The notes below the pieces were generated by a model. It was given only the letters and a program-made list of their open reading frames with translations, did no database searches and had not been told where the DNA came from. From positions 1 to 38,331 of the forward strand of contig JAOQAP010000218.1 of the NCBI GenBank assembly GCA_025963465.1: a DNA stretch of 38,331 bases, read 5' to 3'. Shown here one piece after another: positions 1 through 10,812 of the stretch. The stretch's first letter is position 1. Each line of letters opens with the position of its first letter. This stretch comes from Flavipsychrobacter sp. GTDB taxonomy: Bacteria; Bacteroidota; Bacteroidia; Chitinophagales; Chitinophagaceae. The translations under genes and the position numbers were made by a program.

Positions 1-3000
1 ACTGTAGGCAGAGAATCAACTGATGCTACAGCTGTAGTGATACAGCCTGTAGGTAATGTATAAGTGATCGTAGAAGTACCATACATGATACCACTTACCA
101 CACCACCACTTACCGTTGCTACACTCATGTTGCTGCTGGTCCATGATCCGCCGCCTGTATTTGTCAGGGTGGTCATGCTGCCTGCGCACACCTTCAGTGT
201 ACCGCTGATAGTTCCCGGTAATGGATTAACCGTTACAACCGAAGTCATGATACAGCCTGTTGGCAATGTGTAAGTAATGATCGCAGTACCTGCGAGTACA
301 CCTGTCACTTCACCAAGGCTTGCATCTACTGTTGCTATGGCAGTGTTGCTGCTGCTCCAGCTACCACCCAGTGTTGTAGTACCCAGTGGAGTTGTAAGAC
401 CTACGCACACCTGTGTAGTACCGGTGATAGTAGCAGGCAGTGGATTAACAGTTACCATATCTGTCATGATACAACCTGTAGGCAATGTATAAGTTATTGT
501 TGTTGTTCCTGCCATTACGCCGGTTACTACACCGGTTGAGCTGTTCACTGTAGCTATTGTTGAAGAACCTACAGTCCACATACCGCCTGTTGAGCCATTG
601 CTCAACGCAGTTGTTAAACCCGCGCATACATTCAGTGTACCTGATATTGCCGTTGGCAATGGGTCAACTGTGATCACCCTGGTCATGATGCAACCTGTAG
701 GCAGCATATAAGTGATGATAGAAGTACCTGCAGTTACACCGTTAACAACACCAGTTGATATATCGATTGTAGCGTTTGCATTGCTGCTTGTCCAGCTACC
801 ACCCGGAGTTGCATCAGACATTGATATTGTTAAGCCGGCGCATACATGTGAATTACCAATGATACCCAGTGGCAATGGATTAACTGTAGCTACCGATGTA
901 GTGATACAACCTGTAGCCAGCGTGTATGTAATTATATTAGTACCGGCTGTAATTCCTGTTATAACGCCGCCCGGAGTTATTGTCAGTGGTGTTACCAGTA
1001 CGGTCATGTCATTGGTGAATGTACCGCCTGCGTCCACATCACTCAGTGTTGTTGTAAGGCCTGCACATACATTCAATGTACCACTTATAGGCGCAGGTAA
1101 TGGATTAACCAGTACGATCGCAGTCATGATACAGCCTGTAGGCAATGTATAAGTGATCGTTGTAGTTCCTGCTGATATACCGGTTACCACATTTCCTGCT
1201 ATTGTAGCTACAGCTGTGTTGCTGCTGCTCCACGTACCTGATGGTGTTGCATCGCTTAACGTTGTCGTTAAACCTGCGCACACAGCCATAGTACCTGTTA
1301 TAGATGCCGGTAACGGGTTAACCGTTACAACCGAAGTCATGATACAACCGGTAGGTATTGTATAAGTAATAGTCGCAGTACCTGCTGCTACACCTGTTAC
1401 TACGCCTGTACTGCTGCCTGCGGTAGCTACAGCTGTATTGCTGCTGCTCCATACGCCCGATGGTGTAATGTCACTCAGGGCTGTTGTAAGTCCTGCGCAC
1501 ACATTCATAGTACCTGTTATAGATGCAGGTAACGGATTAACTGTTACCGAAGTTGTCATGATACAACCTGTAGCAGTTAACTTATAGGTCATTGTTGCAG
1601 TACCTGCTGTCAGGCCATTCACAAGGCCGGTACCGCTGCCTATTGTTGCTATTGTTGTATTGCTGCTGCTCCATGTACCTAATGCAGTTGCATCGCTCAA
1701 CGTTGTTGTTAAGCCTGCGCATACACTAGTAGTACCTGTTATTGTCGCCGGTAACGGATTAACCGTTACTACGGCAGTCATGATACAGCCTGTAGGTAAT
1801 GTATAAGTAATTGTTGCAGTACCTGCTACCACACCCGTCACCACATTTCCTGCTACTGTAGCTACAGCCGTATTGCTGCTGCTCCATGTACCTGATGGTG
1901 TTGCGTCGCTAAGCGTAGTTGTTAAACCTGCGCATACACTCATAGTACCTGTTATTGTAGCAGGCAACGGATCAACTGTAATGACCGTTGTCATGATACA
2001 GCTTGTAGGCAGTGTGTAAGTAAGTGTCATTGTACCCGGCGCTATACCGTTTACAACGCCTGTCGATGAATTAACTGTTGCTATACCTGTGTTACTGCTG
2101 CTCCACACACCAGGTGTCGTAGCATCACTCATTGTGATACTTAGTCCCTGGCATACGTGAGTTGTTGCACCTGTTATTGCAGCCGGTAATGGATTGACCG
2201 TTCCGGTCATTGTTATCATACATGTTGTAGGCAATGTATAAGTTATAGTAGTAGTACCCACAGCCATACCGCTCATAACACCTGAAGTGCTACCAATTGT
2301 TGCTACGGTTGTGTTGCTGCTGCTCCATGCACCCAGCGGCGTTGCATCGCTGAGAGTAGTTGTTAAGCCCAGGCATACTGCACCATTACCCAATATTGAT
2401 GTTGGCAATGGATTAACAGTGAATGCAAGTGTAGAGATACAACCTGTAGACAGCTGGTAAGTAATTGTAGTAGATCCTACTGTCAGACCACTAACAAGAC
2501 CTGTACCTGAACCGATAGTAGCTACAGTAGTATTGCTGCTGCTCCACAGTCCGAATGGCGTAGGATCGTTAAGAGACGTCGTCAGTCCGAAACATACATT
2601 ATTAAGACCACCTATTGGTGATGGTAATGGATTAACCGTTACTATGGTTGTAGTGATACAACCTGTAGGTAATGTATAGGTAATGGTAGCAGTACCCGCA
2701 AGCACCCCGTTTACCAGGCCTAGCACGTTTACTGTAGCTATTGCAGTATTGCTGCTGCTCCATGTACCGCCGCCGGCATCTGTCAATTGTGTCGATAGAC
2801 CTGCGCACACATTCATTGTGCCGGTAATCGCTGATGGCAATGGGTTAACGGTTACAGGAGTCGTCATGATACAACCTGTAGTAGTTAATGCGTAAGTAAC
2901 TGTCGCTGTACCTGCCGCGAAACCTGTAACGATACCGGAGCTTGTGCCAACTGTCGCTACCGATAGGTTGCTGCTCGCCCATGTACCCGATGGCGTTGCG

Positions 3001-6000
3001 TCACTAAGCGTTGTAGTTAATCCTACGCATACATTAGTAGTACCTGCTATTGCAGCTGGCAATGGATTTACCGTAACCACTGTTGTATTGATACAACCGG
3101 TTGCTGTCAGTGCATAAGTTATTGTAGTAGTGCCTGCTGTATTACCTGTCAGTCCGCCTGTGAGAGAATTAATTACTGCAACTGTAGAATTGCTGCTGCT
3201 CCATGTACCACCGGCTGTCGCATCGCTCATATTGATGCTCAGACCGTTACAAACAGTGTTAAGGCCAGTAATACTTGCCGGTAACGGATTCACGGTTACT
3301 GTTGCCATTGCTGTACAACCGGTAGGCAATGTATAAGTAATAGTTGTAGTGCCTGCTAAAAGGCCGTTTACAATTCCCAGGCCGGTCACTGTAGCTACAG
3401 TAGTGTTACCGCTGCTCCAGGTACCACCACCTACATCTGTAAGTGCTGTACTTAAACCGGCGCATACTGTGAATGTACCTGTTATAGAAGATGGCAATGG
3501 ATTAACTGTTACAGGGGTTGTTATCAGGCAACCCGTGTTCAATGTATATGTAATAGTAGTAGTGCCTGCAAGCAAACCGCTTACCACACCCGTTGGTGCT
3601 ACCACGGTAGCTATAGATGAGTTGCTGCTGCTCCATGTACCGAATGGTGATGCATCAGCAAGTGCTGTTGTAGAACCCACGCATACATTAGTAGTACCTG
3701 ATATTGCAGCAGGTAACGGATTAACTGTAACTACAGCAGTATTGATACAGCCTGTAGGCAATGTATAAGTTATTGTTGTTGTTCCCGCAGTCGCGCCTAT
3801 AACAATACCACCCACTACAGGCGCTACAGTTGTGTTGCTGCTGCTCCACACACCGGACGGTGTAGCATCACTTAATATTGTGAACGAACCAACGCAGACA
3901 TTCATAGTACCGGTTATAGCCGCAGGAAGCGGGTTAACCGTAACTATTGTTGTAGCGATACAGCCTGTAGCCAGCATATAAGTAATAGTTGGTGTACCTA
4001 CTGAAAGGCCGCTAACAATACCTGTTGATGCGCCTACAGGGGCAAGTGTAGCATCGCTGCTGCTCCATGTACCGGTTCCTGTAGCATCGCTCAGTGTAGT
4101 TGTAAGACCGATACATACAGAAGTAATACCTGCAATGTTCGCCGGTAACGGATTAACCGTGATCACTTTCGTATTGATACAGCCCGTAGGTAATGTATAT
4201 GTAATGGTAGATGTACCTGCTGCAACGCCAAACACCGCACCTGTTAATGAGTTAACAGTTGCTGCACTTGTATTACCGCTTGTCCATGCACCGCCTGTTG
4301 AACCGTCACTGAATGTAGTTGTTAAGCCCGCACATACCGTAGCTGATCCGGAGATAGCTGCAGGCAGTGGGTTAACTGTAAGCTGGGTGGTCATGATACA
4401 ACCTGTACCCAGTGTATAAGTAATAGTGGTAGTACCCGCCAGTACGCCTGTTACCACACCCGAACCTGAAACCACAGTAGCTACCGAAGTAACACTGCTG
4501 CTCCATGCGCCCGATAATGTAGCATCGGTCAATGCTGTGGTTAAGCCCACACACACGTTAGTAGTACCGCCGATAGCAGCAGGTAACGGATTGACCGTAA
4601 CCGTAGCTGTACTGATACAACCTGTTGGTATCATATAAGTAATGGTAGATGTTCCGGCAACCAGGCCATTTACAAGGCCGGTAGCAGAACCTACTGTTGC
4701 TACAGATGAAGTGCTGCTGGTCCATGTACCGGATCCGGTTACATCAGACAAGCCTGTTGTTAAGCCTGCACACACATTCAGCGTTCCGCTGATAGGTGCT
4801 GGTAATGCATAAACTGTTACTGCCGCCATAGACTGGCAACCGGTACCAAGCGTATAAGTGATAGTAGTAGTACCTGCAGATACACCGCTCACGATACCGC
4901 TTACAGAGTTAACAGTAGCTACTGTAGTATTATTTGTGCTCCATGTGCCGCCGCCTGCATCAGATAATCCTGTTGTCAGACCAGCACAAACGGTCATTGT
5001 ACCGCTTATAGCCGATGGCAAAGGATTTACTGTTAATGCTGCCGTTATGCTGCAACCTGTAGATAATGTATAAGTAATAGTAGTAGTACCCGCAGCAACA
5101 CCGCTCACGATACCTGTACCCGAACCAATGGTAGCAACAGAAGTATTGCTGCTGCTCCAGTTACCGAAAGTAGATGCATCAGCAAGGGCTGTTGTAGCAC
5201 CAGGGCATGTATTCATTGTACCTGTTATTGCAGATGGGAACGGATTCACTGTGAATATACCCGTCATTGCACAACCGGTAGCTGATAATGTATAAGATAT
5301 AGTAGTAGTACCTGCTGTCACACCGGAAACAATGCCCGAAGAAGAACCAACAGTAGCTACAGACGAAACGCTTGTAGTCCATACACCGCCTGCTGTTGCA
5401 TCGCTCAGTGCAGAAGTAGCACCTATACAGCTGCTCATAGTACCTATGATAGCTGTAGGTAATGGATTAACCGTAGCAACTTTTGTTGCAAAGCAACCTG
5501 TTGCCAGCGTATAGCTGATATTAGGATAGCCTGCAGATACACCGGTTACGATACCTGTGCCGCTGCCAACTGTTGCTACAGCTGTGTTGCTGCTGCTCCA
5601 GTTACCAAAGCCTGAACCTGTAAGTGTTGTTGTTAAGCCTACGCATACAATACCTGTACCTGCTGTAATAGCCGGTGTAGGATTGATCGTTACTATCGCC
5701 GTAGCGATACAACCTGTAGTTAATGTGTAAGTAACCGTTGCAGTACCGGCGGCAACACCTGTCACCACGCCTGATACTGAATTTACCGAAGCAGTAGTAT
5801 TAGCTGTGCTCCATGCACCAAAACCTGTAGCATTGGCAAGTGTTGTAGTTGCTGCTTCGCACACTACCTGTGTACCAGTTATAGATGCAGGTAATGGATT
5901 AACTGTTACTACAACTGTATTGATACAGCCTGTAGGTAATTTATAAGTAATAGTAGTAGTACCTGCGGCTACACCTGAAACAATACCTGAAGAAGAACCG

Positions 6001-6812
6001 ACAGTAGCAACAGAAGATGTGCTGCTGCTCCATGTACCGCCTGTAAGTGCATCAGTAAGCGCAGTTGTTAAACCTGCACATACGTTCGTAGTGCCTGATA
6101 TTGCTGCCGGCAATGTATTTACTGTTCCTGTTACTATAGCTATACAGCCTGTCGGCAGCATATAAGTAATAGTAGTAGTACCTGCTGCAAATCCGGTCAT
6201 GATGCCTGATGTAGTACCTATGCTCGCAACAGTTAAGTTGCTGCTGCCCCAGTTACCGCCTGCAGTTGCATCGGTAAGTGTAGTAGTTAAGCCTGCACAC
6301 ACTACAGGAGTTCCTGATATTGCTGCCGGATTAGGATTAACGGTAACTACAGCCGTATTGATACAACCTGTAGATATTGTATAAGTTATTGTTGTTGTAC
6401 CTGCTGCTACGCCGAACACGGCACCCGTAGATGAGTTCACTGTCGCCACAGAAGAAGTACTTGTTGTCCATGTGCCACCTGCGGTAGCATCAGTAAGTGC
6501 AGTAGTTAAACCTACGCACACATTCATTGTACCTGTTATTGCAGCCGGTAACGGATTAACTGTTGCTACGGTTGTAGTTGTACAGCCTGAAGCTGTGGTA
6601 TAAGTTATAATTGGATTACCTGCCAGTACGCCGGTCATTACACCTGTACCTGAAACGATAGTAGCAAGGCTTGTATTGCTGCTCGTCCACGCACCGCCTA
6701 AAGTACCATTGCTCAGTGTAGCTGTTAAACCAACGCAAACAACACCTGTACCAGTTATTGCTACCGGTAACGGATTAACTGTAAGTGCTGTAGTTGCATA
6801 ACAACCTGTAGG
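1..6812 (-). pseudogene. In-frame continuation of giant Ig-repeat adhesin beyond an internal stop
   Basis: This stretch continues the reading frame of the gene that starts at 9572, after the TGA at 6813-6815. I read the minus-strand codons of this frame from 6812 to the left edge and found no further stop, so it encodes about 2,270 residues and runs out of the window. It consists of about 31 tandem units of 71-74 codons. Each unit has the pattern VCxGLTTxLSDAT, GGxWSSSNTxVATV, TGxVTGVxAGTTTITYTLPTGC, then a VTVNPLPAxITGT linker, which resembles bacterial Ig-like group 2 (BIG_2) domains. Most units carry two cysteines. There is no ATG-initiated gene of its own at the break, so it is either the untranslated remainder of a gene broken by a point mutation or one gene split by a sequence error. 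The C-terminal end, where a type IX secretion sorting domain might lie, is outside the window. Confidence 0.85.
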
Positions 6813-6970
6813 TCATGTATATGTTATAGTTGTAGAACCTGTTGCTACGCCGCTTGCAACACCAGTTGCAGAACCGATAGTAGCTACCGCAGTATTGCTG
6901 CTGCTCCATGCACCGAATGCCGTAGCATCAGTTAAAGTAGTTGTTGAGCTTTTGCAAACGCTGCTTGCAC
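1..6970 (-). repeat. Tandem BIG_2-type coding repeat array
   Basis: About 32 tandem units with a period near 213-221 bp lie here, all in one phase. The phase can be followed by the recurring plus-strand string for the Trp-Ser-Ser core (gctgctgctcca), seen near 358, 1230, 1449, 1670, 1882, 2323, 2544, 2760, 3200, 3632, 3846, 4062, 4502, 5157, 5598, 6030 and 6907 among others. Some copies vary: the unit near 1030 has Phe in place of the conserved Trp. Three further units lie near 8146, 8367 and 8583, beyond the glycine-rich domain. The high identity suggests recent duplication or gene conversion, and it makes the array prone to assembly collapse. Confidence 0.9.
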
Positions 6971-9572
6971 CGCTTATTGCTGATGGTAAAGGGTTAACTG
7001 TTACCGTTACTGTTGCTGTATTCTGACAGCCAGGAATTGCGTAAGATATAGTAACAATCCCGTTACCAGTATTACCTACACTGTTCGACTGTGAAGTACC
7101 CGCGTTGTAAGATCCGCCGCCGCCGCCTGGATAAGCAAGATTTGAGGGAAAGTCGCCACCAGCGCCGCCGCTATAACCGCCGCCGCCGCCGCCGCCTACC
7201 CACGAACATATACCCTGGCCGCCACCGCCGCCGCCAAAACCGCCATTTCCATTCACACCGGCAGTTCCGCCATATACACCACCTGCACCGCCTGTTAAAG
7301 GTGTTGAACCACCGGTAGAATTTGAGCACCCGCCACCATAACCACCAGCGCCCGCTGAGAACCAACCGGTTCCGCCAGCGGCATAATAAAAGGCTGAAGG
7401 TGTCGTTCCACCATTACCGGAAACGCCGCCACCGCCGGCAAAACCGCCGCCATCTGTTCCGTTGTTTGTTGTCACAGCATTTATTCCGTTGACGCCATTA
7501 TTAGTATTACCATCGTAGCCTGCTCCACCACCGCCACCGGCAGCTATTAATAATGTATTACCTGTTGTAACATTCCACACGAATGATCCGCCGCCGCCGC
7601 CGCCGGTATGTTGAACTGCGGCTGGCTGCTCGCCTGTTAATACTTTAAGGACATCTCCCGGTGTTACACTGAACACACCACTCATATTTGCACCTGCACC
7701 ACCAGGAGCAGAAGTTGTCGTCTGGCTTCCGCCCTGGGCGCCACTTGCTGCTATTGTAATCGAAGTAACACCGGCAGGAACTGTATAGGATACAATCGAA
7801 CCAGTATAACTAAATGGCACTGTCGCAGAAGTTGCATTAGATCCGGTAACGGTGTAAGTAGTAGTTACCGTAGGGCTTGCTGTTACCGATGTTCCCGCCG
7901 TAGACGACAGGCCTGTAGCCGGAGACCAGGTATATAATACAGCACCCGAACCGGTAAGCGTAGTACCTGTGCCTGCACATATCGCAACATTCGAACCACC
8001 ACTAACTGTAGGCAGAGCAGTTACGCTCACCGCAAGTGTGCTGATGCAACCTGATGCCGATGTATAGGTAATAGTTGTTGTGCCCCCGCTAACACCTGTA
8101 ACAGTTCCGCCGGATACCGTAGCTACAGCAGTGTTGCTGCTGCTCCAGGCACCGCCGCTTGTAGCATCACTGAGTGTCATTGTATTCGTAACGCACAATA
8201 AACCACCGCCGCCTGTTATTGCAGCAGGTGTCGCATTTACTGTAAACGTTTTGTTTACCGCACAACCTGTATTTAATGTATAAGTTATAGTTGTAGTGCC
8301 CGCAGCAACACCGGTAACAATACCAGTGCTGGAACCTACAGTAGCTACAGAAGATGTGCTGCTGCTCCATGCACCGAATGCTGTAGCATCAGTTAAAGTA
8401 GCTGTAGTACCGGGGCATGCAGTAGCAGTTCCTGATATGGCAGCAGGGAAAGCACCTACTGTTACTGTTTGTGTAACATCACTGCCGCATCCTGTGCTGT
8501 AAGTAATGATAGTGGTGCCTGTAGCAACACTGGTAACAACACCTGATGATGTACCAACTGTAGCAACAGCAGTAGTACCACTTGTCCATGTACCACCTGT
8601 TACAGCATCAGATAAAGTTGTTGTATTACCCGTTCCGCATATTATCGCATTGCCGGTTATGCTTGCAGGTGGTGCCTGTACATTTACATTTATTGTTGTG
8701 TTTGTTGTGTTTGTACCATCTGAAACCTGTATGGTGTACGCATCTGGACCTGAATATCCTGTTGTAGGTGTATATGTCGTTCCTGTAGGCGATACAGATG
8801 TTCCTACAGATGCAGTAGCAGGAAAGCCACCTAATGCGCCATGAGAAGGGCCTGAAACCACAGACCATGTAAATGTAGTACCAAAGGTACCCGTTGCTGT
8901 AAGCAGTGAATTTATTGAGGTTGCGCTTGCATTCTGGCAAACTTTTGTGTTCTGAGTAGTGCCATTATCAAAATTAAGAACTAGTGGAGCAAAGAATGCG
9001 CCTAACCACGATGCACTGTTACCATTATGAGTTATTGATATAGAGTTAATAGTACCATTGATCTGAACAAGGCCGCCCAACTGAGCGTTATTACCAGAAT
9101 TAGTCAACACGCCACCGGAAACAGACAAAAGGCCACCATAACATCCATCAGATGGGGCGCCAATAAGCTCTGCAGGAGAAAGTGAATATGGAGAACCGTT
9201 TACACTGTAACTAAAGAAACTGGTCCCGGATCCTCCTCCGAATTGGCACGCAAGCTGGATACTGGATATCGGGCTTGAAAACGTAAAGGTTATAACATCG
9301 AATGATCCGGAGGAACGGAAAGGATCTGCCTGCCCTCCGCAAAATGGACTATTAGAATATCCTGAGGTAGTTGTTGTTACCGAAACAGCTCCGTAAGAAG
9401 TTGTTCCCGATACATTCGTGATCTTAGTGTACGTTTGGGCAAAAACATTACTACCTAATAATGTAGCCGCAATTACTAATATGCTCAATAATCCCAGTTT
9501 TCTGGCTATTGAAGCGCTTTTTTCGTGTGCGGTGAAGATCGACTGGAGTAAATTCTGTTTCATAAGCTTCAT
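6813..9572 (-). CDS. Giant secreted Ig-like repeat protein (adhesin-like), N-terminal 919 residues
   Basis: This is a predicted secreted or surface protein of 919 residues up to the first stop. A signal peptide covers residues 1-45 (hydrophobic core LGLLSILVIAATLLG, cleavage near VFA-Q). Residues 47-205 form an N-terminal domain I do not recognise. Residues 206-300 resemble a cadherin/Big_9-like domain (TYTPTTGYSGPDAYTIQVSDG). Three BIG_2-type units follow (about 300-510), then a PKD/Ig-like unit (about 515-580). A glycine-rich domain covers 581-847 with many Gly runs and a VPAGVTSITI opening typical of the ALK-type Gly_rich family. One more BIG_2 unit leads into the stop. The start could be Met1 or Met4. 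The TGA falls in the ITYTLPTGC motif where sister units carry TTA (Leu), so one T-to-G change explains it. Function in adhesion or matrix is inferred from architecture; no partner gene is adjacent. Confidence 0.85.
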   Translation of the reverse strand: MKLMKQNLLQSIFTAHEKSASIARKLGLLSILVIAATLLGSNVFAQTYTKITNVSGTTSYGAVSVTTTTSGYSNSPFCGGQADPFRSSGSFDVITFTFSSPISSIQLACQFGGGSGTSFFSYSVNGSPYSLSPAELIGAPSDGCYGGLLSVSGGVLTNSGNNAQLGGLVQINGTINSISITHNGNSASWLGAFFAPLVLNFDNGTTQNTKVCQNASATSINSLLTATGTFGTTFTWSVVSGPSHGALGGFPATASVGTSVSPTGTTYTPTTGYSGPDAYTIQVSDGTNTTNTTINVNVQAPPASITGNAIICGTGNTTTLSDAVTGGTWTSGTTAVATVGTSSGVVTSVATGTTIITYSTGCGSDVTQTVTVGAFPAAISGTATACPGTTATLTDATAFGAWSSSTSSVATVGSSTGIVTGVAAGTTTITYTLNTGCAVNKTFTVNATPAAITGGGGLLCVTNTMTLSDATSGGAWSSSNTAVATVSGGTVTGVSGGTTTITYTSASGCISTLAVSVTALPTVSGGSNVAICAGTGTTLTGSGAVLYTWSPATGLSSTAGTSVTASPTVTTTYTVTGSNATSATVPFSYTGSIVSYTVPAGVTSITIAASGAQGGSQTTTSAPGGAGANMSGVFSVTPGDVLKVLTGEQPAAVQHTGGGGGGSFVWNVTTGNTLLIAAGGGGGAGYDGNTNNGVNGINAVTTNNGTDGGGFAGGGGVSGNGGTTPSAFYYAAGGTGWFSAGAGGYGGGCSNSTGGSTPLTGGAGGVYGGTAGVNGNGGFGGGGGGQGICSWVGGGGGGGYSGGAGGDFPSNLAYPGGGGGSYNAGTSQSNSVGNTGNGIVTISYAIPGCQNTATVTVTVNPLPSAISGASSVCKSSTTTLTDATAFGAWSSSNTAVATIGSATGVASGVATGSTTITYT

Positions 9573-9776: not shown

Positions 9777-9784
9777 TAACTTTA
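9777..9784 (+). promoter_or_regulatory. Probable -7 element of ruvB
   Basis: TAACTTTA matches the Bacteroidota -7 consensus TAnnTTTG at all but the last base. It overlaps the first possible ATG of ruvB (9784), so transcription would begin near 9790, where the second ATG lies. This favours the second ATG as the true start, with little or no 5' leader. I see no clear -33 TTTG at the right distance. Confidence 0.4.
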
Positions 9785-9789
9785 TGCCG

Positions 9790-10812
9790 ATGTCTGACTC
9801 AAATATAAGGCCCACAGGCAACCTGACAGTACAGGAAAAAGACTACGAAAACACCATACGGCCGCAAACCATAGAAGATTTTGCCGGCCAACCCAAGCTC
9901 ATAGATAATCTCCGCATATTTATTAAAGCAGCAAATATGCGTGGCGAGCCGTTGGATCACATCCTCTTCCACGGCCCTCCCGGCCTGGGAAAAACGACGC
10001 TTTCCCGCATTGTTGCTAATGAGCTGGGAGTAGCCATAAAGGAAACCAGTGGCCCGGTAATAGAAAAACCCGGAGACCTTGCGGGCCTGCTCACCAGCCT
10101 GGAACCACGGGATGTGCTGTTCATAGACGAGATACACCGCCTGAGCACTGTGGTAGAGGAATACCTCTACGCTGCCATGGAAGATTTTAAAATTGACATT
10201 ATGATAGACTCCGGCCCATCGGCCAGGTCTATACAGCTTACCCTTAATCCCTTTACCCTGGTAGGGGCTACCACCCGTAGCGGCCTGCTTACGGCACCGC
10301 TGTTATCCAGGTTCGGCATCAAGTCGAGGCTGGAATACTATACAACAGAAGTATTGCAACGCATCATACAGCGTGCCGCAGGTGTGCTCAATGTAAAGAT
10401 CACCTCTGATGCAGCAGGAGAAATAGCGCGCCGCAGCCGTGGCACGCCACGTATTGCCAATGGCCTGCTGCGCCGCATGCGCGACTTTGCACAGGTGCTG
10501 GGCAATGGCGTTATAGACCTGGGCATTGTAGAACACGGACTGAAAGCCCTGAACGTAGATGAAAGCGGCCTGGACGATATGGACAATAAGATACTGGCCA
10601 CGCTGATAGATAAATTCAAAGGAGGCCCTGCCGGTATCAATAATATAGCTACAGCAGTAAGCGAGGAGGCCGGTACCATAGAAGAGGTATATGAACCATT
10701 CCTGATACAGGAAGGCTATATTATGCGTACTCCACGTGGCCGTGAGGCTACCGAAAAGGCATACAAGCACCTTGGCCGCACAAAAGAAATAACGGGCAAC
10801 ACATTATTTTAA
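9790..10812 (+). CDS. ruvB: Holliday junction branch migration DNA helicase RuvB
   Basis: RuvB is the AAA+ motor that, as hexameric rings with RuvA, drives branch migration of Holliday junctions in recombination and repair. The 340-residue product has the normal family length. Visible motifs are Walker A GPPGLGKT, Walker B FIDEIHRL, the sensor I GATTRSG segment and the sensor II region [15 protein letters not shown]. The winged-helix C-terminal domain includes the [15 protein letters not shown] stretch and ends near [10 protein letters not shown]. An upstream in-frame ATG at 9784 would add two residues (Met-Pro), but a -7-like element overlaps it, so I chose the ATG at 9790. The gene stands alone, divergent from the adhesin, and is closed by a strong hairpin at 10834. 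Confidence 0.97.

Follow-up and report, generated by a model that had tools for sequence, protein, structure and literature searches.

A single in-frame TGA in a giant Big_2 repeat gene of Flavipsychrobacter, probably a recent nonsense substitution

A giant gene encoding an array of Big_2 repeats is interrupted by one TGA codon in the window, the whole stretch of 38,331 nucleotides that was analysed and the entire contig C112 of its assembly. We consider it probable that this codon arose by a recent nonsense substitution in a gene belonging to a large group of giant Big_2 proteins, or that it marks a truncated allele of that gene in the population sampled. In support of this reading, the frame holds a single stop, the stop is a singleton among the repeat units scanned, the sibling genes are open, and UGA is a normal terminator in this genome. 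The presence of one lesion only counts against it. The earlier note had left three options for the TGA, namely inactivation of the gene, readthrough of the stop, or a sequence error. Of these, recent inactivation fits the sole, singleton stop and the open siblings best, an error of the assembly is the less likely alternative, and readthrough found little support. Most likely the explanation is an ordinary one, loss of function by a recent change or an error of assembly, and not a new genetic mechanism.

Results

One stop codon in an otherwise open giant frame

On the minus strand, the frame that starts with the ATG at 9572 runs to base 3 of the window and comprises 3190 codons, in which the sole stop is codon 920 (read as tca on the plus strand). 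It is preceded in frame by 919 codons and followed by 2270 codons up to the contig edge. The remaining five frames over the same stretch contain 56 to 371 stops each. This bears out the earlier claims of a single TGA in an otherwise open giant frame and of no second stop leftward from position 6812, across about 31 repeat units of about 73 residues in one phase. GC content by codon position is similar on either side of the stop (47/66/32% before and 43/65/32% after it), and conservation extends past it: 23 overlapping two-unit rows, taken entirely from downstream of the stop, are identical in 26 of 161 columns. Coordinates of the features are listed in Table 1.

Table 1 Features of the interrupted gene and its neighbour in the window.
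Feature	Position	Strand	Remarks
In-frame TGA stop	6813..6815	-	Codon 920 of the frame with start ATG 9572
In-frame continuation	3..6812	-	2270 stop-free codons, about 31 Big_2 units, leaves the contig
5' ORF, 919 aa	6813..9572	-	Signal-peptide-like N-terminus, N-terminal region, Ig-like repeats, Gly-rich segment, start of the Big_2 array
Signal-peptide-like segment, residues 1-46, ending ...VFAQ	9435..9572	-	Assigned by eye
Gly-rich segment, residues ~651-850	7023..7622	-	Defined by 100-residue windows that contain 30 Gly or more
ruvB, divergent neighbour	9784..10812	+	Adjoining gene

The TGA occupies the Leu column of the motif ITYTLPTGC, as had been noted from the sequence. The accompanying statement that sister units carry TTA or TTG at this codon stood for 17 of the 30 other motif copies matched by the search pattern used; the remaining 13 comprise 8 with another Leu codon, 4 with an Ile codon and 1 with a Ser codon. 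Of all 28,710 single-base changes that the frame could undergo, 713 would create a stop, and the giant gene is a large target for such changes.

Both parts of the frame match Big_2 repeats. Big_2 (PF02368) scores 369.4 bits in the part after the stop and 39.6 bits in the 919-residue part (Pfam gathering cut-off 22.8), and PF25354 (Ig_NUP210_16th) likewise exceeds its cut-off in both. A structure prediction for two units reached a mean pLDDT of 38, too low for use. The longest exact repeat spanning the stop, considered with regard to unit exchange by recombination, is 25 bases long.

The gene leaves the left edge of the window within the repeats, so that its 3' end lies off the contig. The assembly consists of 277 contigs totalling 4.18 Mb and is 97.5% complete with 2.46% contamination. 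A continuation of the contig was sought with its first 200 bases, for which the longest exact match in the fetched stretches of the same genome was 18 bases, and a DNA search likewise gave none. In order to find a syntenic orthologue, the three nearest upstream ORFs (at least 200 aa) next to ruvB were compared in 20 genus genomes, some of whose flanking stretches span merely 2-7 kb, and no comparable giant was present among them. This suggests that the giant is an accessory gene. One of the ruvB stretches (L156) contains a single repeat unit elsewhere.

The stop is a singleton among the repeat units that were scanned

To place the stop among the repeats of the genome, a unit profile was built from 26 units of the window and hits were counted at a score of at least 15 bits. 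The window and 48 fetched stretches of the same genome gave 429 unit hits (29,663 residues), 35 of them from the window, and one in-unit stop, which is that of the window. This count omits L101, which partially overlaps L070, and L066, which lies inside L097; a wider scan including both found no stop except copies of the window's. The part after the stop gave 98 matches on 46 contigs of its own genome, two of which are the window's own, and none has an internal stop.

The earlier note had proposed a comparison of the base in related strains. In 35 genus genomes, a pattern test that covers this one codon position found a stop at the motif codon in four places, of which that of the window alone lies in the repeat frame, and the TTA/TTG version of the pattern in 1481 places. 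At this codon, a stop in the repeat frame is unique to the window in this set.

Among the matches listed, the nearest N-terminal homologue outside the genome (G027:C2) shares 50% identity over residues 30-393. It is 4562 aa long, its frame is open without internal stop, and its C-terminus matches Por_Secre_tail (PF18962) with 29.1 bits (cut-off 27). Absence of the stop from homologues, as expected for a nonsense pseudogene, is thus seen both in this protein and in the remaining units of the genome, of which none contains an in-unit stop. The frame of a paralogue on contig C5, in the same genome, stays open as far as the contig end; this paralogue resembles the window gene in the order of a signal-like segment, repeats and Gly-rich segments, of which it has two. 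Most siblings with their 3' end inside the fetched stretches finish in tails resembling those of type IX secretion (T9SS), as judged by eye, and the others leave their contigs.

The family consists of giant Big_2 repeat surface proteins that are probably exported by the T9SS. With known tandem-repeat proteins of bacterial Ig-like group 2 (Big_2) that are T9SS cargo (PF02368 plus PF18962), the window gene shares a Big_2 array far over the cut-off, and tails of this kind are found in most completed siblings (by eye) and in the nearest homologue (by Pfam). Unlike those proteins, the window's member is interrupted by a single in-frame TGA, and its 3' end lies off the contig.

Proposed consequences of the nonsense change

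If the base is real, as we consider probable, translation would stop after codon 919. The product would retain the putative export signal and the Gly-rich part, and would lose nearly all repeats as well as, by analogy with the siblings, a T9SS tail, which may be located on the missing 3' end. Such a truncated protein would be expected to reach the periplasm without being displayed on the surface. The earlier description of a 919-residue product that keeps a signal peptide and a glycine-rich domain holds for its length, for a signal-peptide-like N-terminus recognized by eye and for the Gly-rich segment; the loss of a sorting domain, also claimed there, fits the siblings and G027:C2, the gene's own 3' end being off the contig.

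A young nonsense pseudogene in a bacterium looks much the same: it likewise has one stop, a frame that is otherwise open, and open homologues elsewhere. Taken as a nonsense allele, the gene does no more than illustrate how large a target for loss a giant repeat gene presents.

A possible consensus error in the assembly

The TGA might instead be a consensus error, in which case the gene would be one intact giant ORF. We regard this as possible, though less likely than a real substitution. It is in keeping with an assembly of many contigs and some contamination, as well as with a contig that, like several others, ends within repeats. No second stop follows downstream, which means that either the mutation is young or the base is wrong; the missing downstream decay is just as compatible with an error or with a working gene. 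If errors at a uniform rate were its cause, the one stop in 29,663 repeat residues would correspond to a rate of 1.1e-5 to 2.5e-3 per base, the low end of which is believable. However, the absence of any other in-unit stop from the 429 units indicates that such errors are not common here, and an assumed rate of 1e-5 to 1e-4 per base predicts just 0.002 to 0.024 nonsense errors in the gene. Pseudogenes are common in bacteria, where they often make up a few per cent of genes. Since real broken genes are this common, a real nonsense change is favoured over an error, although not strongly.

Improbable readthrough by an unusual tRNA-Trp

A third explanation is leaky readthrough of a real UGA at a low rate, probably as Trp by an unusual tRNA-Trp; the short product would predominate, accompanied by some of the giant protein in full length. 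It starts from the sole tRNA-Trp(CCA) found in the genome (L186:1501-1572, equal to G000:C43:8410-8481, where G000 is the genome of the window), which carries a C27-U43 mismatch at the top of the anticodon stem. Across 30 genus genomes with one tRNA-Trp gene each, C27-U43 occurs in G000 and G025, whose 72-base genes are identical, while 26 genomes have G-U and two have A-U; five genus genomes (G001, G006, G023, G027 and G030) gave no match and therefore lie outside the 30. Of twelve further tRNA-Trp genes, one is a second gene of G005, within the genus; the other 11 come from genomes outside the genus, and two of these (G035 and G055) have C-U.

According to one paper (PMC13092985), a tRNA-Trp with a 4-bp stem raises UGA readthrough in E. 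coli, such stems occur patchily among standard-code bacteria, and the effect of these tRNAs at native levels is still to be assessed. The Blastocrithidia tRNA-Trp described in the same text has a C-U mismatch at the top of the stem, as does the gene with C27-U43 here. We thus take the latter as a possible UGA decoder, which says nothing of actual readthrough. The case differs from the reported one in several respects. Position 24 is A in all 30 genus genes including this one, and A24-bearing genes are set apart in PMC13092985. Moreover, the UGA stops of the genome are not clearly depleted, and no other in-frame stop occurs in the repeat units. The tRNA-Trp of the window's genome has G26 and C44, which may form a closing pair above the mismatch. 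Given the C-U in two of the 11 genes from outside the genus, C27-U43 may also be drift.

The terminators of ORFs that begin with ATG and span 150 aa or more were counted to see how UGA is used. TGA terminates 75 of 498 ORFs (15%) in the sample from G000, the window's own genome, with the window's among them; the corresponding figures are 56 of 245 for G025 and 74 of 417 for genus controls. Against the controls, p is 0.28 for G000 and 0.13 for G025. As this usage is not clearly depleted, UGA acts as an ordinary terminator, and the counts argue against readthrough.

The repeats speak against it as well. G025, which has the same tRNA, gave 63 repeat matches without a stop, in the window's own genome the one stop among 429 units is that of the window, and Trp is found at the motif column in none of 236 own-genome motifs. 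Programmed readthrough would call for conservation of the stop in homologues or for a stimulatory RNA fold. At this codon, a stop in the repeat frame was detected in the window's copy only, and the fold after the stop is unremarkable (z -0.35; z -1.66 for a stretch centred on the stop). The base at +4 is C; according to a second paper (PMC5289835), TGA-C raises readthrough in yeast, whereas the leaky context for tRNA-Trp in E. coli is +4 A, not C.

We also collected same-frame ORF pairs split by a single stop. TGA accounts for two of 28 such splits in G000, one being the window's, for four of 14 in G025 and for none of 25 in the controls. The excess in G025 was followed up as a lead for readthrough and rejected, since by Pfam all four pairs consist of two different, complete-looking genes each. 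The second TGA-split pair of G000 also represents two different genes; one example of a TGA-split pair is Nramp followed by an FMN reductase. As the partners belong to different Pfam families, these pairs are ordinary neighbours terminated by UGA. Three of the four G025 pairs have C at +4, the same as the window. Among the TGA splits found, that of the window is the only TGA within a gene.

In summary of the evidence at the site itself, nothing positive points to readthrough except the +4 C and, elsewhere in the genome, the unusual tRNA-Trp, and we consider readthrough improbable. Marginally less credence is given to its extended form, in which a bacterium whose sole tRNA-Trp found has an unpinned anticodon stem would tolerate the UGA and make two products from the gene, a short one in the periplasm and, through leaky decoding of UGA as Trp, a rare one of full length on the surface, as an early step to ambiguous UGA decoding. 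Were readthrough shown, it would link a natural stem mismatch in tRNA-Trp to the use of a UGA within a reading frame by a bacterium with the standard code.

Evidence against genome-wide reassignment of UGA or selenocysteine insertion

The weakest explanation, genome-wide reassignment of UGA or insertion of selenocysteine, has nothing in its favour beyond the codon being UGA and can be dismissed with near certainty: RF2 is over the cut-off in the genome while SelB is below it, no tRNA with a UCA anticodon and no tRNA-Sec is among the 35 tRNAs typed by ARAGORN out of 36 RF00005 matches, 15% of ORFs terminate in UGA, and the stop sits at a Leu column, neither at a Trp nor at a Cys column. The release factor, SelB, tRNA and terminator tests thus refute it, save for the one untyped tRNA match, which is partial and lies where contig C118 ends.

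Giant Big_2 genes elsewhere in the genome and the genus

The genus carries many giant Big_2 proteins, and the assembly analysed here often breaks inside them. In the genome of the window, giant Big_2 genes are strongly expanded (46 contigs), and several contigs break inside one, which leaves the lengths and the number of the genes uncertain. The listed literature on giant, Ig-like or Big_2 proteins showed nothing on a gene of this type with an internal stop. Among the matches listed, an N-terminal homologue from another species (G021:C132:10234-11415) contains an internal TAA, so that broken members of the family may not be rare. The first repeat frame of L075 (G000:C27) has 771 codons and ends without a visible T9SS tail directly before another giant gene. 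L083 (G000:C233) and L069 (G000:C242) each show neighbouring Big_2 genes in tandem with similar T9SS-like tails, a sign of local gene duplication.
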